Of a stretch of 64,000 nucleotides of DNA, positions 8,053 through 15,367 are shown one piece after another. The DNA comes from Stenotrophomonas sp. NA06056 (GTDB lineage Bacteria > Pseudomonadota > Gammaproteobacteria > Xanthomonadales > Xanthomonadaceae). Made by a program: the position numbers and the translations under genes. The DNA is taken from assembly GCF_013364355.1 (NCBI RefSeq), contig NZ_CP054931.1, positions 3,100,001-3,164,000 on the forward strand, in the 5' to 3' direction. The notes below the pieces were generated by a model, which searched no databases, was not told where the DNA came from, and was given only the letters and a program-made list of their open reading frames with translations. Numbering within the stretch: position 1 is the first letter of the stretch; each line of letters opens with the position of its first letter.

Positions 8053-9366
8053 TTACCCCGGCAGCTGCAGCACCGCCTGCAGGCCACCGCCCTCGCGATT
8101 GCGCAGCTTCAGCGAGCCGCCCAGCGACTGCGCCAATTGCACGGCGATGGCCAGGCCCAGGCCGGTGCCGCCGGTATCGCGGTTGCGCGAGCTTTCCAGT
8201 CGATGGAACGGCGCCAGCACCGCCTGCAGCTGGTACTCGGGAATTCCCGGCCCACGATCAGACACGCTGATCCACGCCCTGCCTGCGGCATCGCGACCGG
8301 CATCGATCTCGGCGCTGCCGGCATAGCGCAGAGCGTTGTCCACCAGGTTGCCAATCACCCGCCGCAGCGGCTGCGGCCAGGTCTGCACGGTCAGGCCCGC
8401 AGGCGCGCCACCGCTGACCGGCTTGCCCATGTCTTCATAGTCGCCCACCACGCTGGCCAGGAACGCGCCAAGATCCATCGCCACCGGCGCGCCACTGGCC
8501 ACGTGGCTGCTGCGCGCATAGGCCACGCCCTCGCGCACCAGTTGCCCCAGGTGGTCCAGGTCATCCAGCAGGCGCTGCTGGGTGGCATCATCGGGCAGCG
8601 TTTCCACACGCAGCTTCATGCGTGTGATCGGCGTCTGCAGATCATGCGAGATGGCAGCCAGGATCTGCAGCCGCTCGCTTACGTGACCCCGGATGCGCGC
8701 CTGCAATGCATTGAGCGCAGCCGCCGCCGTGGCCACTTCGGCGGGGCCATCCTCGGCCAGCATCGGTGCATCCTTGCCGGGCTGCAGATGCTCCACGGCG
8801 TGCGACAGCTGTTGCAGCGGGCGCAGCGCCAGCCGCACCGCCAGCCACGCACACAACAGCAGCAGGGCCAGCTGCGCCAGCAGCACGGCCGGCAGCCAGC
8901 GCGCCAGCGGCAGGCCCGATGGCGTGACCTCGATGGTCAGCGGTGAACCGTCGTGCAGGCGCAGTTCCACTTCGAACCGTTCCGGCAGACGTGCCACCTG
9001 GCGTGCCTGCAGCGGATAGCGATGTTCCAGGCTGTCATCGATGATGGCGGTGACCTGGCGCGCCCGATCGGTTTCCAGTGCGGGCCCGGCCTCTGCCGGG
9101 CGCAGCAGGTAGCGGTAGGTGCGCCGCTCCAGCCTCGGCACCCAGGCTTGGCGCTGATCGGCTGGCAGGTGTTCCAGCAGGGCCACGCTCACTGCCACAT
9201 CCTCGTCCAGGTTGCGCAGCATCATGCTGCGCGTGGCCTGGTAGCGTTCGTAGAACAACAGCCCAAAGGACAGCGCGTGGGCCAGTGTCAGCCCGCCCAG
9301 CAGCAACAGCAGCAGGCGCGCCGACAGCGTGCGCGGCCACAGCAGGCGGCCCGCGCGGGCGTTCAT
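8053..9366 (-). CDS. Sensor histidine kinase, EnvZ-like
   Basis: 437-residue membrane kinase. A first membrane helix (about 15-38), a periplasmic domain of about 120 residues, a second helix near 158-180 and a HAMP linker are followed by the H-box ISHDLQTPITRMK (phospho-His near residue 240) and an HATPase_c domain with N-box NLVDNALRYA, DRGPGIP and the GGTGLGLAI lid. Its start overlaps the stop of the response regulator gene by four bases (ATGA), so the two form a coupled pair. The periplasmic stimulus is unknown. The thioredoxin-like and hydrolase genes upstream on the same strand could be targets or co-transcribed. Confidence 0.9.
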   Translation of the reverse strand: MNARAGRLLWPRTLSARLLLLLLGGLTLAHALSFGLLFYERYQATRSMMLRNLDEDVAVSVALLEHLPADQRQAWVPRLERRTYRYLLRPAEAGPALETDRARQVTAIIDDSLEHRYPLQARQVARLPERFEVELRLHDGSPLTIEVTPSGLPLARWLPAVLLAQLALLLLCAWLAVRLALRPLQQLSHAVEHLQPGKDAPMLAEDGPAEVATAAAALNALQARIRGHVSERLQILAAISHDLQTPITRMKLRVETLPDDATQQRLLDDLDHLGQLVREGVAYARSSHVASGAPVAMDLGAFLASVVGDYEDMGKPVSGGAPAGLTVQTWPQPLRRVIGNLVDNALRYAGSAEIDAGRDAAGRAWISVSDRGPGIPEYQLQAVLAPFHRLESSRNRDTGGTGLGLAIAVQLAQSLGGSLKLRNREGGGLQAVLQLPG

Positions 9367-10103
9367 TCCTCTGGCCCCAGCAGCTGCACCGGCGCGCTGA
9401 ACACATAGCCTTCGCTGCGCACGGTCTTGATATAGGTGGGCTCACGCGCATCATCGCCCAGGCGCTGGCGCACGCGGCTGACCAGCAGGTCGATGGAGCG
9501 GTCGAACAGTTCGGCATCGCGGCCCTGGGTAAGGCTGAGCAGCTGGTCGCGGGTGAGCACGCGGTTGGCGTGGTCGAGGAACACGCGCAGCAGGCGGAAC
9601 TCCGCGCCGCTGAGCGGATAGGCGGTATCCTGCGCATCCAGCAGATGACGCGCGGTGGTATCCAGGCGCCAGTCACCAAAGGCCAGCTGGCGGCCGGCTT
9701 CGCTCACCTGCAGATTGGGCGGCAGCATCTGCGTGCGGCGTATCACCGCGTTGATGCGTGCCAGCAGTTCACGCGAGGAGAACGGCTTGGTCACGTAGTC
9801 GTCGGCGCCCATTTCCAGGCCGATGATGCGATCGGTTTCGTCGTCGCGGGCAGTCAGCAGTACCACCGGCACCGCACGATGCTTGCCGGCACGCAGGTTG
9901 CGGCACAGGCTCAAGCCATCTTCGCCGGGCATCATCACGTCCAGCACCACCAGGTCCACCGCATGGGTGTCCATCAGCGCGCGCATCGCGCGGCCGCCAT
10001 CGGCCTGGCTGACGCGCAGGCCATTGCGCTGCAGGTAGTCGGCCAGCATCTGACGGATGTCGCTGTCATCGTCGACGACAAGGATGTGCGGTACGTGATT
10101 CAT
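9363..10103 (-). CDS. Response regulator, OmpR/PhoB family
   Basis: 246 residues: receiver domain (acidic DDD near residue 11, phospho-acceptor Asp in LVVLDVMMPG, conserved KPF lysine) and a C-terminal winged helix (LSGAEFRLLRVFLDHANRVL, then DRSIDLLVSRVRQRL and YIKTVRSEGYVF). Partner of the kinase at 8053-9366 through ATGA overlap. I prefer ATG at 10103 over a TTG at 10130, because the protein then begins MNHVPHILVVDDD as is normal for the family. Confidence 0.9.
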   Translation of the reverse strand: MNHVPHILVVDDDSDIRQMLADYLQRNGLRVSQADGGRAMRALMDTHAVDLVVLDVMMPGEDGLSLCRNLRAGKHRAVPVVLLTARDDETDRIIGLEMGADDYVTKPFSSRELLARINAVIRRTQMLPPNLQVSEAGRQLAFGDWRLDTTARHLLDAQDTAYPLSGAEFRLLRVFLDHANRVLTRDQLLSLTQGRDAELFDRSIDLLVSRVRQRLGDDAREPTYIKTVRSEGYVFSAPVQLLGPEE

Positions 10104-10160
10104 TGCGTTCTCGATGGAGGCGGAGGACAAGGCCGCGCGGCGCGGCCATGGTAGCGCGGC

Positions 10161-10706
10161 TCAGGGACTGGCCAGCAGGCGCTGGATCTCGCTTTCGGTA
10201 CGTGCGTAGTCGCCTTCGCCGTAGTGGCGGTAGACCACCCGACCCTGCCGGTCGACCAGGTACAGCGCCGGCCAGAACCGGTTGCCCCAGGCGTTCCAGA
10301 TCCGGTACTGGTTGTCCTGCACCACCGGCCAGGTGATGTCGAGGCGGCGGATCGCATGGCGTACGTTGCCCTGCAGGCCCTCATAGGCGAACTCGGGCGT
10401 ATGCACGCCGATCACGTGCAGGCCCTTCGGTGCGTAACGGGCATGCCATTGGTGCACGTACGGTGCGATGTTGAGGCAGTTGCTGCAGCCATAGGTCCAG
10501 AACTCGACCAGCACCACCTGCCCACGCAGCTGCCCAAGGGTGAGTGGCGGGCTGTTGTGCCACGGCCCACCGCCGTTGAAGCCTGCGGCCGGAGCAGGCC
10601 CGGCCGGCTGCGCGCCGGCCTCCGGGCTGGGCCAGGCCAGCAGCAGCGCGGCGCCTCCCAGCAGGGCCAGCAGGAGCGGCACGGTGTAGGCACGGAATGT
10701 GGCCAT
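10161..10706 (-). CDS. Exported thioredoxin-like (redoxin/TlpA-type) protein
   Basis: 181 residues with one N-terminal hydrophobic segment (7-25) that exports or anchors it, then a thioredoxin fold with redox motif GCSNC inside VEFWTYGCSNC and the cis-proline segment FWPALYLVDRQG. The sequence VIGVHTPEFAYE is typical of the DipZ/TlpA-like group. A likely role is thiol-disulfide or peroxide chemistry in the periplasm. Only 3 bp separate it from the upstream hydrolase gene on the same strand, so the two are probably one transcript. Confidence 0.85.
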   Translation of the reverse strand: MATFRAYTVPLLLALLGGAALLLAWPSPEAGAQPAGPAPAAGFNGGGPWHNSPPLTLGQLRGQVVLVEFWTYGCSNCLNIAPYVHQWHARYAPKGLHVIGVHTPEFAYEGLQGNVRHAIRRLDITWPVVQDNQYRIWNAWGNRFWPALYLVDRQGRVVYRHYGEGDYARTESEIQRLLASP

Positions 10707-10709
10707 TGC

Positions 10710-11504
10710 TCAGCCTCCCTGCTCGGCCAGCGGCAGCTCGGCGGGTTTCACGCCAGCGGCTTCCAGAATGCTGTCGGCCACCTGCGCCGGGTGCGAAAGC
10801 AGCGACACGTGGCTGCTGCCGATCGACTGCAACTGTGCGCCGATGCGCTGCGCGGTGGCGACCTGCAGCTGCGGCGCCAGCATGCGGTCATTGCGGCTGA
10901 CCACATACCAGCTCGGCTTGCTGCGCCATGCTGCAGTGGTCACCGCTTCGCCCAGTGCGCTGGCCTTCAACGGCACCTGCGTGCTGTACAGCAGGGCGGT
11001 AGTCTTCTTCATCACGTCCGGTGCGAAGTCCTTGGCGATGGCGTCCGCCGGCAGGGTCAGGTAGCCGTCCTTCTCCTGCAGGCGGGTCAACCCCGGGCCG
11101 ACCGGGAAGCCTTCGCCCTGCTGCGCCGACGACTGGCCGACATCCGGCGCGAAGGCGGCCACGTAGACCAGCGCCTGCACCTTGGGGTCGTTGCCGGCTT
11201 CGGTGATGACCGTACCGCCCCAGCTGTGGCCGACCAGCACCACCTTGCCGGGTGCTGCGGCAATCGCGCGGCGGGTAGCCGCCACATCCTCGGCCAGCGA
11301 AGTGAGCGGATTCTGCACGGCCACCGCAGGCAGCTTCCAGTCTTGCAGGGTGCTGATGACCTTGTTCCAGCTGGAGCCATCGGCGAAGGCGCCGTGAACC
11401 AGGATGACCGTGGGCGGCACGCTTGCGTCGGTCTGGGCAGCGAAGGCAGGGGCGGCGGCGCCGGCAAGAGCCAGGGCCGCGGTGAGCAGGGTGGTGCGGA
11501 TCAT
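10710..11504 (-). CDS. Exported alpha/beta hydrolase
   Basis: 264 residues: signal peptide (1-22, ending AFA) and an alpha/beta-hydrolase fold with oxyanion region VILVHGAF, nucleophile elbow GHSWGG (Ser near 100) and terminal His in [10 protein letters not shown]. It resembles the EstC/salicylate-esterase-like group of esterases. I start it at ATG 11504 because the signal peptide [16 protein letters not shown] then begins directly. An in-frame ATG at 11534 adds ten non-hydrophobic residues. It is divergent from the bufferin-like operon across a 322-bp region with three copies of a motif, so shared control is possible. Confidence 0.85.
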
Positions 11505-11826
11505 GGGGTGCGCTCCGGTGTTGGGAGTGGCCATTTCCGCCTGCGGGTGTATCGGTGCTGTTTCGCTGCGGCGCCGAGTTGTACCGGACTGTAGGACAGC
11601 GGCGGCTTCCTACAGTTGGATACATTCGGCTGCCGGGTGGACAAGGTTCCCCGCACGCGGGCGCGCAACCCGCCGATGCACCCCGACGCGGCGTTTTTGT
11701 ATCCAACTGTACGAAACCCCTGCCGCAGCCACAGTCGCTGACAAAACCCCGGGCATCGGCACACGTTGCCGATACCTGCGTGGCCCGAAATGGCCTCCAT
11801 CGACCACCGGCCCGCAGGACACACCC
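11505..11826. promoter_or_regulatory. Divergent control region with three copies of a TTGTA-N6-CTGTA-like motif
   Basis: Gene-free stretch of 322 bp between the exported hydrolase (left) and the DoxX-bufferin operon (right). TACAGTTGGATACA at 11611-11624 is the exact reverse complement of TGTATCCAACTGTA at 11698-11711. A related copy, TTGTACCGGACTGTAGGA, is at 11579-11596. Read outward, the common form is about TTGTAyCCrACTGTAsGA: two copies point right and one points left toward the hydrolase. A dimeric regulator or an ECF-type sigma factor could read it. No classical -35/-10 pair was obvious. Confidence 0.55.
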
Positions 11827-12471
11827 ATGATCAGCACCGCCTCCTCCCTCTACACCCCACGCCTGGATGCCGTCGGCCGCTGGCTTTCGCCGCTGGCCCT
11901 GCGTGCGCTGCTGGCCTGGGAGTTTTTTGAATCGGGCCGCGAGAAGCTGGGCGGGCAGAACTGGTTCGCCGACCTGGAAGGGCGCTTCCCGTTCCCGTTC
12001 TCCACCCTGCCCGCTTCGCTCAACTGGCAGCTCGCCACCTGGCTGGAACTGGTGGGCGCGGTGATGCTGCTGCTGGGCCTGGCCACGCGCTCGGTGGCCT
12101 ACATCTTCTGGGTGCTGACCATCGTCGCGATTGCCGCCGTGCACTGGCCCGACCAGTGGAACGGCCTGGACGAACTCTGGCAGGGCTATGCGATCACCGA
12201 CCAGGGCTACGGCAACTTCAAGCTGCCGCTGCTGTTCCTGGCCATGCTGCTGCCGCTGATCCTCAACGGTGGCGGCGCGCTCAGCGTCGACCGCCTGCTG
12301 GCCGGCCCGCAACGCGCCACGGCCCACAATGACGGCCTCGGCTGGGGCGTCAGCCTGATCGCCCTGCTGCTGCCGGTCGCCGCGCTGCTGCCGGGCATCG
12401 GCTTCGGTGGCGCCCTGCTCGGCGGTGCCCTGCTGCTGGCCCATGTGCTGCGCCGTCGCCGCGGCGCCTGA
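11827..12471 (+). CDS. DoxX-family membrane protein, first gene of bufferin-like operon
   Basis: 214-residue inner-membrane protein with about five hydrophobic segments. The segments [36 protein letters not shown] and [21 protein letters not shown] fit the DoxX family. DoxX proteins are common companions of DUF692/DUF2063 genes in metal-stress operons, which is exactly the context here (precursor, DUF692, DUF2063 downstream). The biochemical role of DoxX in these operons is not settled; a membrane redox role has been suggested. The ATG at 11827 is 102 bp upstream of the precursor gene. Confidence 0.85.
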
Positions 12472-12572
12472 TCCGCCTCCGCCCTTTCCCACCCTTCCTC
12501 GCATCGCATTCCGTCGCCTTCCCGCGGCGTCCATCCCGCACGCCCTGCGTGCACATCCAAGGAGTCACCACC

Positions 12573-13049
12573 ATGTCCGTCTCGACCAAGAACACCGCTG
12601 CTTCCCGTCTGCCGCGCATCGGCGCCATCGGCATCGCCCTGGCTGGCGGCCTGCTGCTGGCCGGCCAGGCCGCCGCGATCCAGCCGCTGGCGATCAGTGC
12701 CGTGGCCATGAGCGCCGCCGCCGAAGGCAAGTGCGGTGAAGGCAAGTGCGGCGCCAACAAGGCCGCCACCAGCAAGCCCGCCGGCAAGGCCAAGGTGGCC
12801 GAAGGCCAGTGTGGCGAAGGCAAGTGCGGCGACGCTTCATTTGCCCGTACCGACCGTGACCACGACGGCCGGGTCTCGCGTGCCGAGTTCAACGCCGTGG
12901 CCGCCAAGCGTGCCGCCGAATTCGACCGCATCGACACCGACCACGACGGCTACATCAGCGAACAGGAAGCGCACGACTACCTGCGCAGCGTCTACACCGC
13001 CCACGGCAAGCCGATGCCGAAGGGCCTGTTCTCCCGCGTCAACGACTGA
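12573..13049 (+). CDS. Exported EGKCG-motif precursor (HvfA/bufferin-like) fused to two EF-hands
   Basis: 158 residues. A signal peptide (about 1-35, cut near QAAA) is followed by a segment holding four Cys in two tandem pairs: [10 protein letters not shown] at 51-60 and [10 protein letters not shown] at 77-86. Two canonical EF-hand loops follow, [12 protein letters not shown] at 94-105 and [12 protein letters not shown] at 121-132, with acidic residues at positions 1, 3, 5 and 12. EGKCG repeats are the substrate motif of HvfA-type precursors, whose Cys are converted by DUF692 (MNIO) enzymes to thiooxazole-type rings that bind copper. The DUF692 and DUF2063 genes follow at once. I start at ATG 12573, preceded by AAGGAG. 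The EF-hand fusion is the unusual part; modification is inferred, not visible. Confidence 0.85.
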
Positions 13050-13104
13050 TTGCCCCTCAACTGCGCCGCCCTCGTGGCGGCGCCTCTGCCCTGGAGTACC
13101 GCGC

Positions 13105-13950
13105 ATGTCCCTGCCCCTGCCTTCCGCCAGCGCCGGCCTTGGCCTGCGCCGTGGCCTGATCGATGAGCTGCTGACGATGCCGGCCGATGCCGTCGACTTC
13201 CTCGAAGTGTCGCCGGACAACTGGATCGGCGTCGGCGGTGCCCACGGTGCCGCACTGCGCCAGCTGAGCGAGCGCCATCGCCTGACCTGCCACGGCCTGT
13301 CGCTGTCGCTGGGCGGCCCGGACCCGCTGGATCGCACGCTGCTCGCGCAGACCCGTGCCTTCCTCGATCTGCACCAGGTGCAGCTGTACAGCGAACACCT
13401 GAGCTACTGCGCCGCCGGCGGCCATGTCTACGATCTGCTGCCGCTGCCGTTCACCGCCGAGGCCGTGCACCACGTCGCCGGTCGCATCGCGCAGGTGCAG
13501 GACACGCTGGGCCGACGCATCGCGGTGGAGAACATCTCCTACTACGCGGTGCCTGGTGCGGACATGAGCGAGATCGATTTCATCAATGCCGTACTGGCCG
13601 AAGCCGACTGCGATCTGCTGCTGGACGTCAACAATGTCTTCGTCAACGCCTGCAACAATGGCTACGACGCCTTCGATTTCCTGGCCCGCGTGCCTGGCCA
13701 TCGCGTTGCCTCGCTGCATGTGGCCGGCCACTTCGACGAGGACGATGGTTTCAAGATCGACACCCATGGCGCGCCGGTGAAGGGCGTGGTCTGGGCGCTG
13801 CTGCGCGAGGCCTATGCGCGTGTCGGCGTGCGCCCCACCCTGCTGGAACGCGATTTCAACTTCCCGCCGCTGGTCGAACTGCTGGCCGAGGTCACGCAGA
13901 TCCGCCAGGCCCAGGCCGAGGTGCTGCTGCCGGAGATGGTCCATGGCTGA
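13105..13950 (+). CDS. bufB: DUF692 multinuclear non-haem iron oxidase (MNIO), BufB/HvfB-like
   Basis: 281-residue TIM-barrel enzyme that modifies Cys residues of a peptide precursor using several iron ions and oxygen. The metal-ligand motifs of the family are all present: [10 protein letters not shown] near residue 33, [11 protein letters not shown] near 62, YSEHLSYCA near 96, VENISYY near 143, [13 protein letters not shown] near 172 and SLHVAGHF near 203, with PTLLERDFN near the end. It lies 55 bp after the EF-hand precursor and overlaps the DUF2063 gene by eight bases, so the three are an operon. The predicted substrate is the EGKCG region of the neighbouring precursor. Confidence 0.9.
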
Positions 13951-14677
13951 GTCGCTGGCCACCCTGCAGCAGCGCTGGGCCGACCACGTGCGCGACCCGT
14001 CGATGCCCGCGCCCAATGGCATCGAAGCACGGCGGATGGCGGTCTATCGCCGCCTCTGCATCGACAGCCTGGACAGCCTGTTGGCCGGCAGCCTGCCGCG
14101 CCTGCAGGCGCAGCTGGGCGCTGCCCGCTGGCGCGAAACAGTCGAACACTACTACGCACGTCATGCCTGCCACACGCCTTTGTTCCCGCAGATCGCCGGC
14201 GAATTCGCCGCGTGGCTGGCCATGCAGGACGCGTTCGCGCTGCCCGGCTGGGCGGCGGAACTGGCGCACTACCAAAGCACGCAGCAGGCGCTGCACATCG
14301 AAGCGCGCGATGCCGGGCATTCGTTGCGGTACACGCCTGCGGGCAGCGACGTGCTGGCGCTGTCGCCGCTGGTGCGGGTACTGGGCTACCAGTGGCCGGT
14401 GCATGAGGACGCCGCGCTGGACGATGCCGCCGCCAGCGAGCCGACGCTTCTGCTGCTGCGCCGCCTGGCGAACTACCAGCTGCAGGTCGAGGAACTGGCA
14501 CCGCTGGCGTATGCGCTGCTGTCGGCCTTTGGCGATGACGGTAGTCGCGTGGATGACGCCCTGCAGGCGCTGGCCGAGGCACATGACGTGACCGCGGATG
14601 CACTGCACGTGGTGGCCGCGCCTGTGCTGGGCGAACTGTGCGCAGCCGGCGTGTTGGTTGTGCTGACCGGGTTCTGA
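13943..14677 (+). CDS. bufC: DUF2063 partner protein, BufC/HvfC-like
   Basis: 244 residues. The N-terminal half is the DUF2063 (putative DNA-binding, in fact partner) domain, with segments [20 protein letters not shown] and EFAAWLAMQ. The C-terminal half is a second, variable domain. In HvfBC/BufBC systems this protein binds the MNIO enzyme and presents the precursor. The start overlaps the DUF692 stop by eight bases, which makes a stoichiometric complex likely. No catalytic motif is seen, as expected. Confidence 0.9.
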
Positions 14678-14679
14678 GA

Positions 14680-14703
14680 TTGCCGGCCGGCGGCCGGCAC
14701 TAC
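14680..14703. repeat. GTAG/CTAC palindromic repeat (GCCGGCC type)
   Basis: A single GC-rich palindrome (TTGCCGGCCGGCGGCCGGCA) followed by CTAC, 3 bp after the DUF2063 stop. It may also form the 3' hairpin of the bufferin-like transcript. Confidence 0.6.
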
Positions 14704-14728
14704 CCACTTCTATTTCGAGGTTTGAACA

Positions 14729-15367
14729 ATGGCTTTTTCCAATACTTCCTTCCTGCACGGCTGGCGCCTGTTCCTGGCCATTGCCGTGGTGCTCATCGCC
14801 TTTGCGCTGGCCGCGTTCGCCCTGCACGCCGACGTGGCCGAAGGCAGTCGCGCGGCGATCCGGGTTACTGCACGCACGTCGTTCCTTCTTTTCCTGATCA
14901 CGTTCACCGCATCCTCGTTCGCCAGCCTGCTGCCGGGGCCGACCAGCCGCTTCCTGCTGCGCGAACGCCGGATGATCGGCCTGTCGTTTGCGTTCTCGCA
15001 CCTGCTGCATGCCATCGCGATCACCGCGTTCGGCATCCTCAACCCGGCGTTCTGGCCGGCACGTTCGGCCCTGGCCAATCTGCCTGGCACGGTGGGCTAT
15101 GTGGCCATCCTCGCGCTGGCGATCACCTCGCACCGCGGCATCGCCCGGCGCATGGGCCCCACCGCATGGCGACGCCTGCACGTCACCGGCATGTGGATCA
15201 TCGCCGCGGTGTTCACCTACTCGTACTTCAAGCGCGTGCCCGGCAACTTCTGGTACGCGGTGCCTTCGGCGCTGCTGTTCACGGCCTTCGTGGTGCGCGC
15301 GATCGCAAAGCGGGCACAGTCGCTGCGGCGGAATGTGCCTGCGCGAGCAGCACTGCGGAGTTCGTAG
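14729..15367 (+). CDS. Ferric-reductase-like transmembrane haem protein
   Basis: 212 residues with about six hydrophobic segments. His residues lie inside membrane segments: SFAFSHLLHAIAITAF near residue 90 and RRLHVTGMWIIAAVF near 150. These fit the bis-His haem-b ligands of the ferric-reductase-like transmembrane (MsrQ/YedZ-like) fold, without an attached flavin domain. It follows the bufferin-like operon on the same strand after a palindromic repeat, so it may be read through from it or be independent. A link to copper/iron redox handling is only contextual. Confidence 0.7.
   Translation: MAFSNTSFLHGWRLFLAIAVVLIAFALAAFALHADVAEGSRAAIRVTARTSFLLFLITFTASSFASLLPGPTSRFLLRERRMIGLSFAFSHLLHAIAITAFGILNPAFWPARSALANLPGTVGYVAILALAITSHRGIARRMGPTAWRRLHVTGMWIIAAVFTYSYFKRVPGNFWYAVPSALLFTAFVVRAIAKRAQSLRRNVPARAALRSS

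Follow-up and report, generated by a model that had tools for sequence, protein, structure and literature searches.

A putative copper chelator of thiooxazole type, fused to an EF-hand pair, in an HvfABC-like operon of Stenotrophomonas sp. NA06056

The window analysed here is a 64,000-nucleotide stretch of the Stenotrophomonas sp. NA06056 genome (contig NZ_CP054931.1, positions 3,100,001 to 3,164,000 of the forward strand), and the system in question is an operon of five + strand genes at 11827-15367 encoding HvfX (DoxX), a 158-residue precursor, HvfB (MNIO), HvfC (DUF2063) and a ferric-reductase-like protein. The genome is a single contig of 4.52 Mb, its best match with a name being S. maltophilia EA1 (93%). 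We propose that the precursor, a member of the HvfA (oxazolin/captophorin) family, probably serves in the periplasm as a thiooxazole copper chelator and is equipped with a working C-terminal Ca2+ module. Such a fusion is already known as a kind, and from its sequence the window protein belongs to the same family as EfhP of Pseudomonas aeruginosa, an EF-hand protein for which a role as Ca2+ sensor has been reported. What appear to be new, judged by open-licence papers, are an operator shared between operons of this type and a "sandwich" layout in which the EF-hand pair lies between EGKCG blocks; it is these two that the specialist may wish to retain.

The operon and its precursor

The features of the operon are as follows.

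11827..12471, + strand: hvfX, DoxX-family membrane protein, first gene of the operon (NCBIfam NF050144 'HvfX', 137.5 bits against a cut-off of 80)
12573..13049, + strand: precursor of the HvfA/EfhP type, 158 residues, with a Sec-like signal peptide (recognised by eye only), four Cys and an EF-hand pair
12723..12752, + strand: first Cys block, residues 51-60
12801..12830, + strand: second Cys block, residues 77-86
12852..12887, + strand: EF-hand loop 1, residues 94-105 (Pfam, loop pattern and structure model)
12933..12968, + strand: EF-hand loop 2, residues 121-132 (Pfam, loop pattern and structure model)
13105..13950, + strand: hvfB, MNIO (DUF692) gene (PF05114, 338.7 bits; NF003818 'HvfB', 408.9 bits against 360)
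13943..14677, + strand: hvfC, DUF2063 partner with an NGO1945 C-terminal domain (NF050145 'HvfC', 191.8 bits against 142)
14729..15367, + strand: ferric-reductase-like membrane protein, 51 bp past hvfC (Ferric_reduct PF01794, 37.7 bits against 28)

Judged by its family matches, the assignment of this operon to the HvfA type is near certain. A precursor with EGKCG motifs, apparently exported, adjoins HvfB, HvfC and HvfX proteins that all score over their curated cut-offs, and the start of hvfC overlaps the end of hvfB by 8 bp. The precursor itself reaches the domain model NF050137 'HvfA family' (36.2 bits against 19.5) and two Pfam EF-hand models (PF13405, 38 bits against 25; PF13202, 37.9 against 25.9), and does not reach the full-length HvfA equivalog NF050188 (31.7 bits against 95). 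The original prediction had placed Cys54, 59, 80 and 85 in EGKCG/EGQCG motifs, followed by two intact 12-residue EF-hand loops, and its coordinates and reading frame hold exactly. It had also spoken of a bufferin/HvfABC-like operon with an EF-hand-fused precursor; the HvfABC half of that label stands, whereas the strict bufferin reading, with its DUF2282 precursor and BufB, is rejected, the Pfam scan of the window proteins having returned no DUF2282 match and the MNIO falling under the BufB cut-off (NF050167, 267.1 against 310 bits). The gene list given with it (DoxX, DUF692, DUF2063) was correct as far as it went but omitted the fifth, ferric-reductase-like gene. Two further candidates for the precursor, the type III effector XopAW (32 bits against a family cut-off of 120) and lanmodulin (20.6 against 135), were likewise rejected.

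EfhP (PA4107) is operonic with PA4106 (DUF692) and PA4105 (DUF2063) (PMC4053335) and carries four EGKCG repeats, as noted in PMC11559002, whose accessible text mentions none of MNIO, DUF692, PA4106 and RiPP. It shares with the window protein a signal peptide, EGKCG repeats, two C-terminal EF-hands and the same neighbouring gene families, and the P. aeruginosa homologue of 155 residues that we take for EfhP from its species and length (P0034) is 59% identical to the window protein over 99%; the operator in the window is, in addition, close to the BfmR motif of EfhP. The two systems differ in that, in the window, hvfX leads the operon, the ferric-reductase-like gene ends it, three operator sites are present and the two-component genes are divergent. 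Antoine et al. (2025; PMC12452194) describe EGKCG precursors of 31-506 residues, so that the original prediction, which took known precursors for short copper-binding peptides, is outdated on this point, and they name EF-hand chimaeras (Buf_EGKC|EF-hand_5) in which a short EGKCG arm is followed by two EF-hands next to MNIO, DUF2063 and DoxX genes. The window protein has this build and is one of them, with no difference in kind. Copper plus Ca2+ homeostasis or signalling was suggested for these chimaeras in the same paper; the available parts of PMC8719888 and PMC8692599 add nothing on the EF-hand fusion.

The captophorins HvfA (oxazolin) and fontiphorin have in common with the window operon the EGKCG motifs and the MNIO plus DUF2063 partner, and HvfA alone also shares the Sec signal and a DoxX-like HvfX. 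In the plain EGKCG precursors HvfA and FonA, Cys residues are converted to 5-thiooxazoles, Cu is bound and the signal peptide serves as leader (PMC13097082, PMC13419390). Modification and Cu binding were demonstrated there, whereas the window protein is known from its sequence, and the term EF-hand does not occur in the accessible text of either paper. By relation to these proteins, thiooxazole formation and Cu(I) binding by the precursor are likely. Ca2+ binding is a little more likely still, since its ligands are intact and binding has been measured for EfhP (13.7 uM; PMC9132961). Many of the best 120 homologues discussed below, where named, are called 'HvfA family oxazolone/thioamide-modified RiPP metallophore' or 'EF-hand domain-containing protein'; the oxazolone/thioamide of the NCBIfam name persists, whereas the current chemistry is 5-thiooxazole. 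The genome holds a second MNIO gene, at 2805920 (L002, G000:C1:2805920), in a plain operon with the same HvfA-HvfB-HvfC-HvfX gene set; it differs in its 118-residue precursor devoid of EF-hands, in its order A-B-C-X and in adjoining phoU.

Absence of the fusion from close relatives, which the original prediction had associated with an assembly artefact, is not what the genus displays: full-length copies at 75-100% identity occur in 20 of the 61 genomes searched, the own one included, and the artefact is thereby rejected. Most other matches of that search are different EF-hand or HvfA-like proteins at up to 72% identity and partial coverage. Across the 20 aligned copies none of the 20 residues of the Cys blocks varies while 12 of their 20 codons vary synonymously, a pattern indicative of purifying selection on the blocks; variable residues number 12 of 16 in the linker between them, three of 12 in EF loop 1 and five of 12 in EF loop 2. 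In the protein database 1131 proteins match the precursor at E<=1e-3, and the following statistics rest on the best 120 of these plus the window protein (n=121). These proteins have between 1 and 8 CG-type Cys, and yet the distance from the last Cys to the first Ca2+ ligand is 9 residues in 120 of 121 (the lone exception, P0043, fails the loop-1 pattern used), the loop-to-loop spacing is 27 in all 118 with two recognised loops, and the Ca2+ ligands stay intact across the family. In an AlphaFold2 model built from 33 sequences, residues 40-87 have a predicted local distance difference test (pLDDT) score under 50, residues 88-143 fold as an EF-hand pair and residues 101-150 reach pLDDT 81-86. Helix E begins in this model at residue 88, three residues past Cys85, so that the last modifiable Cys would abut the calcium domain.

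Operator sites and orphan fusions in Pseudomonas

Upstream of hvfX lie three operator-like sites and a divergent unit that includes two-component genes.

11580..11594, + strand: operator-like site 1, TGTAYCNNACTGTAS
11610..11624, - strand: operator-like site 2, reading TACAGTTGGATACA at 11611-11624 on the + strand
11698..11712, + strand: operator-like site 3, ending 114 bp before hvfX
10710..11534, - strand: alpha/beta hydrolase, first gene of the divergent unit
10161..10706, - strand: ResA/DsbE-like thioredoxin-fold protein of the divergent unit (56.1 bits against a curated cut-off of 170)
9363..10130, - strand: OmpR-type response regulator of the divergent unit, candidate BfmR orthologue
8053..9366, - strand: sensor histidine kinase, candidate BfmS orthologue

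The three copies of TGTAYCNNACTGTAS between the divergent units are the only three in the genome at up to one mismatch, and sites 2 and 3, read in the other direction, contain TACAGTTGGATACA. At least two copies, with up to two mismatches allowed, are present in all 20 Stenotrophomonas loci. The published P. aeruginosa BfmR motif is TACAA-N3-GATACA, and BfmR reportedly activates efhP more than any other gene (PMC8025907); the window contains two exact matches to the relaxed form TACA-N4-GATACA, with G at position 5 where the published motif has A. With a limit of 400 bp from the first gene and one mismatch tolerated, and with two loci set aside whose precursor lies behind hvfBC (L056 and L080), we found this relaxed form before 23 of 26 operons of the window's type (17 exact). 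It was found at five of 135 other MNIO loci, namely four of 60 sandwich loci (none exact), one of 41 plain loci (exact) and none of 34 loci with a distant MNIO, and the reversed pattern was found in none of the locus groups. The three misses are L037, L174 and L198, the last being of the phoU-locus form; L037 does hold exact boxes and was missed on account of its start point, its hvfX matching residues 112-176 only. The same partial match is seen for hvfX of another Stenotrophomonas locus, L016, and in both the DoxX gene looks shortened or broken while the remaining operon is kept.

A response regulator like that of the window accompanies 15 of 28 entries of this type within their stretches, at distances of up to about 6 kb, a count in which two pairs are one sequence each and many stretches are too short to show the regulator. 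These proteins, from Stenotrophomonas, Lysobacter, Steroidobacter, Rheinheimera and Pseudomonas, are 69-97% identical to the window's over at least 240 residues, and 69-79% identical outside Stenotrophomonas. We infer that the divergent two-component system is BfmRS-like. Among the 120 listed relatives of the kinase, many of them nameless, no name contains Bfm, and the BfmS label is thus unconfirmed by name; a match to the solved 'BfmR' receiver domain 5hm6 was set aside, since 14 OmpR-type matches were obtained and this single one among them has no value as proof.

The operator is not confined to complete operons. Thirty-one EF-hand fusions, all in records titled Pseudomonas (e.g. L053, L060, L067), have no MNIO gene in the fetched stretch, and many of them have just two CG-type Cys. 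An operator precedes the match by 148-266 bp in 29 of these 31 orphans (12 exact), when a 500-bp span is searched, one orientation is accepted for one-mismatch sites and the distance is taken to the start of the tblastn match. All 18 orphan genomes tested, of the 31, hold an MNIO elsewhere, and in each one such enzyme is more than 55% identical to the HvfB of the window. We infer that the split efhP-type copies stay in one regulon.

Elsewhere in the genome, exact TACA-N4-GATACA sites number just two (G000:C1:989013 and 994917; L260 and L261), 5.9 kb apart and lying, by eye, near TetR-like and TonB-receptor-like open reading frames. The hvfX promoter also contains a near-perfect inverted repeat, GGCATCG-GCACA-CGTTGCC (11752-11770), kept in most aligned Stenotrophomonas loci.

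Sandwich precursors and the phoU locus

The sandwich layout was found at 60 distinct loci among L088-L109 and L135-L253 (e.g. L089:5992-6432). D1 and E12 are kept in both EF loops of all 60, and 47 of the 60 precursors end in a 10-residue C-terminal sequence plus up to four residues. In the window's family, 116 MNIO genes from 92 genomes comprise 44 of the sandwich form, 35 plain, 9 with C-terminal EF-hands, 26 distant and 2 other, the sandwich being the commonest; no genome among the 92, as read, holds a sandwich and a plain locus together. In its accessible text, PMC12452194 describes just the C-terminal form. A total of 112 stretches were fetched as loci, places left out being weak, partial or near-duplicate; near-identical Stenotrophomonas copies (L003-L021) were excluded from typing and trees, and rows with an identical MNIO were dropped.

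The phoU gene stands beside 54 of 60 sandwich loci, 18 of 41 plain loci and one of 26 loci of the window's type, which is a separate locus under other control than the phoU-side loci. Most Xanthomonadaceae sandwich loci adjoin phoU, and a related sandwich occurs, without phoU, at four Pseudomonas loci (L090, L092, L095, L097). An earlier quick MNIO tree, before which 28 of 36 distant MNIO rows were dropped, joined long branches; ten long or outgroup rows were then dropped and the set thinned for a careful build of 92 rows. To place the sandwich label on this tree takes 16 changes, of which starred branches force at least 8, and none of the 200 bootstrap trees (0%) sets the label apart on one side of a branch, though this bootstrap had not settled. 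The EF-hand pair has thus undergone repeated gain or loss, to a large extent next to phoU; gain and loss cannot be told apart from such trees.

Three loci deserve a brief mention. At L194 the precursor of an MNIO locus has a single Cys, placed after the EF-hand pair; at L102 the EF-hand part of a fusion looks broken; and at L111 a phoU-hvfABCX locus of Stenotrophomonas-like character lies on a contig with the label Bacillus subtilis SK7B5, probably through contamination or mislabelling.

Proposed mechanism and alternatives

Under the mechanism that we propose, envelope or metal stress would lead the divergently encoded BfmRS-type two-component system to bind the TACA-N4-GATACA sites, both the signal and binding in this species being presumed, and the bound BfmR-type regulator would switch on hvfX-precursor-hvfB-hvfC. 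By analogy with HvfA and FonA, HvfBC would turn the four Cys into 5-thiooxazoles in the cytoplasm with the signal peptide as leader, after which the modified precursor would be exported and its disordered thiooxazole arm would bind Cu(I). The folded EF-hand pair would bind Ca2+ with micromolar affinity, as EfhP does, and Ca2+ binding probably alters how accessible the copper arm is, how it assembles or how it binds partners, because the last thiooxazole would closely precede helix E of EF-hand 1 with a constant spacing. This last step, the coupling of Ca2+ to Cu, is a tentative guess from the fixed spacing, the conservation of the ligands and the recurrence of the combination. The dual-metal sensor or Ca2+-controlled chelator put forward in the original prediction is in this sense plausible, and has in part been suggested in print (PMC12452194, PMC11559002).

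A number of points weigh against this interpretation. Published binding and structure work on EfhP used protein made in E. coli without its signal peptide and is silent on a modified form, and PMC11559002 links EfhP with Ca2+ and Fe rather than Cu, the regulator studied being CarSR rather than BfmRS. The structure model has low overall confidence (mean pLDDT 59.3, predicted template modelling score 0.39), and the 9-residue spacing was measured on proteins picked for their similarity to the query. The operator is also found within 400 bp of only eight of 17 hvfBC pairs that have no adjacent EGKCG precursor. The four boxed sandwich loci are the four Pseudomonas ones (L090, L092, L095, L097), three of which also have a response regulator like the window's nearby, and the sole boxed plain locus (L242) comes from a Pseudomonas genome having an orphan fusion; because all five are from Pseudomonas and the other 56 sandwich loci lack the box, the operator marks a Pseudomonas/Stenotrophomonas-type locus and not a layout. 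An N5 spacing variant occurs in 11 of 31 orphan loci and in both loci with the precursor behind hvfBC, N3 in two of the 31 orphans, and N6 in three of 60 sandwich and two of 17 hvfBC-only loci, so that Pseudomonas promoters hold more GATACA half-sites than one defined box. Finally, the loci are related, and the Fisher values of 5e-20 and 1e-15 for the operator association therefore overstate the evidence.

The alternative that survives best bears on the coupling step alone and is compatible with the remainder of the mechanism. In this view the EF-hand pair serves constitutively for folding or anchoring and is always loaded in a Ca2+-rich periplasm, so that calcium exerts no control over the copper arm. 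That plain precursors lacking EF-hands also adjoin phoU (18 of 41, against 54 of 60 sandwiches) and that EF-hand presence changes repeatedly on the MNIO tree are both consistent with it, whereas the intact Ca2+ ligands across the family, the loss of Ca2+ binding upon mutation of +X and -Z in EfhP and the loss of Ca2+ induction of pyocyanin when binding is disabled (PMC9132961) speak against it. We regard this alternative as a serious contender short of the favoured view, a purely structural role of the EF-hands being about as likely as Ca2+/Cu coupling.

The hypothesis of the EfhP authors leads to a second, improbable alternative in which the protein is chiefly a Ca2+ sensor with a Cys arm that responds directly to iron or redox state, and in which the MNIO makes no copper chelator of it. 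Deletion of efhP alters the Ca2+ regulation of iron uptake, the EGKCG Cys were proposed to sense Fe and dual Ca2+/Fe sensing was suggested (PMC11559002), and the ferric-reductase-like gene of the window operon, matched in nine of the 26 such loci in a set where some stretches do not extend far enough to reveal the gene, would fit. Against this, HvfB and HvfC genes adjoin the precursor, and its motifs are those made into Cu-binding 5-thiooxazoles in HvfA and FonA. That the precursor goes unmodified while the MNIO acts on another substrate, as the 31 MNIO-less fusions might suggest, is highly improbable given the contiguity of the window genes, the operator shared by 29 of these orphans and the HvfB-like MNIO elsewhere in every orphan genome tested.

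Returning to the copper-thiooxazole chelator with a Ca2+ module, we tentatively extend it to EfhP-type calcium sensors at large. These may be post-translationally made copper-thiooxazole proteins in which the state of Ca2+ binding gates the metal arm. EF-hands and thiooxazole Cys would be paired in at least two layouts, one with the EF-hands after the arm and with BfmR-type control, the other with the EF-hands flanked by two arms and located at phoU. Gain or loss would have been repeated, and orphan Pseudomonas efhP products would be modified in trans by a distant hvfBC within the same regulon. If the Cys of EfhP are indeed thiooxazoles, structural and binding work on the unmodified, leaderless protein would need redoing, and the link of EfhP to metal uptake would gain a chemical explanation. 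The shared operator makes modification, regulation and trans-modification of the orphan copies directly testable in laboratory strains, and whether closure of the EF-hands organises a copper site could be examined naturally on the sandwich precursors.

As to the last gene of the operon, its product is MsrQ-like, yet far under the MsrQ cut-off. Its nine matched loci are those of the window, L037, L039, L042, L047, L086, L177, L186 and L216, and at L039, L042, L047 and L086 the gene lies on the opposite strand, together with hvfX.

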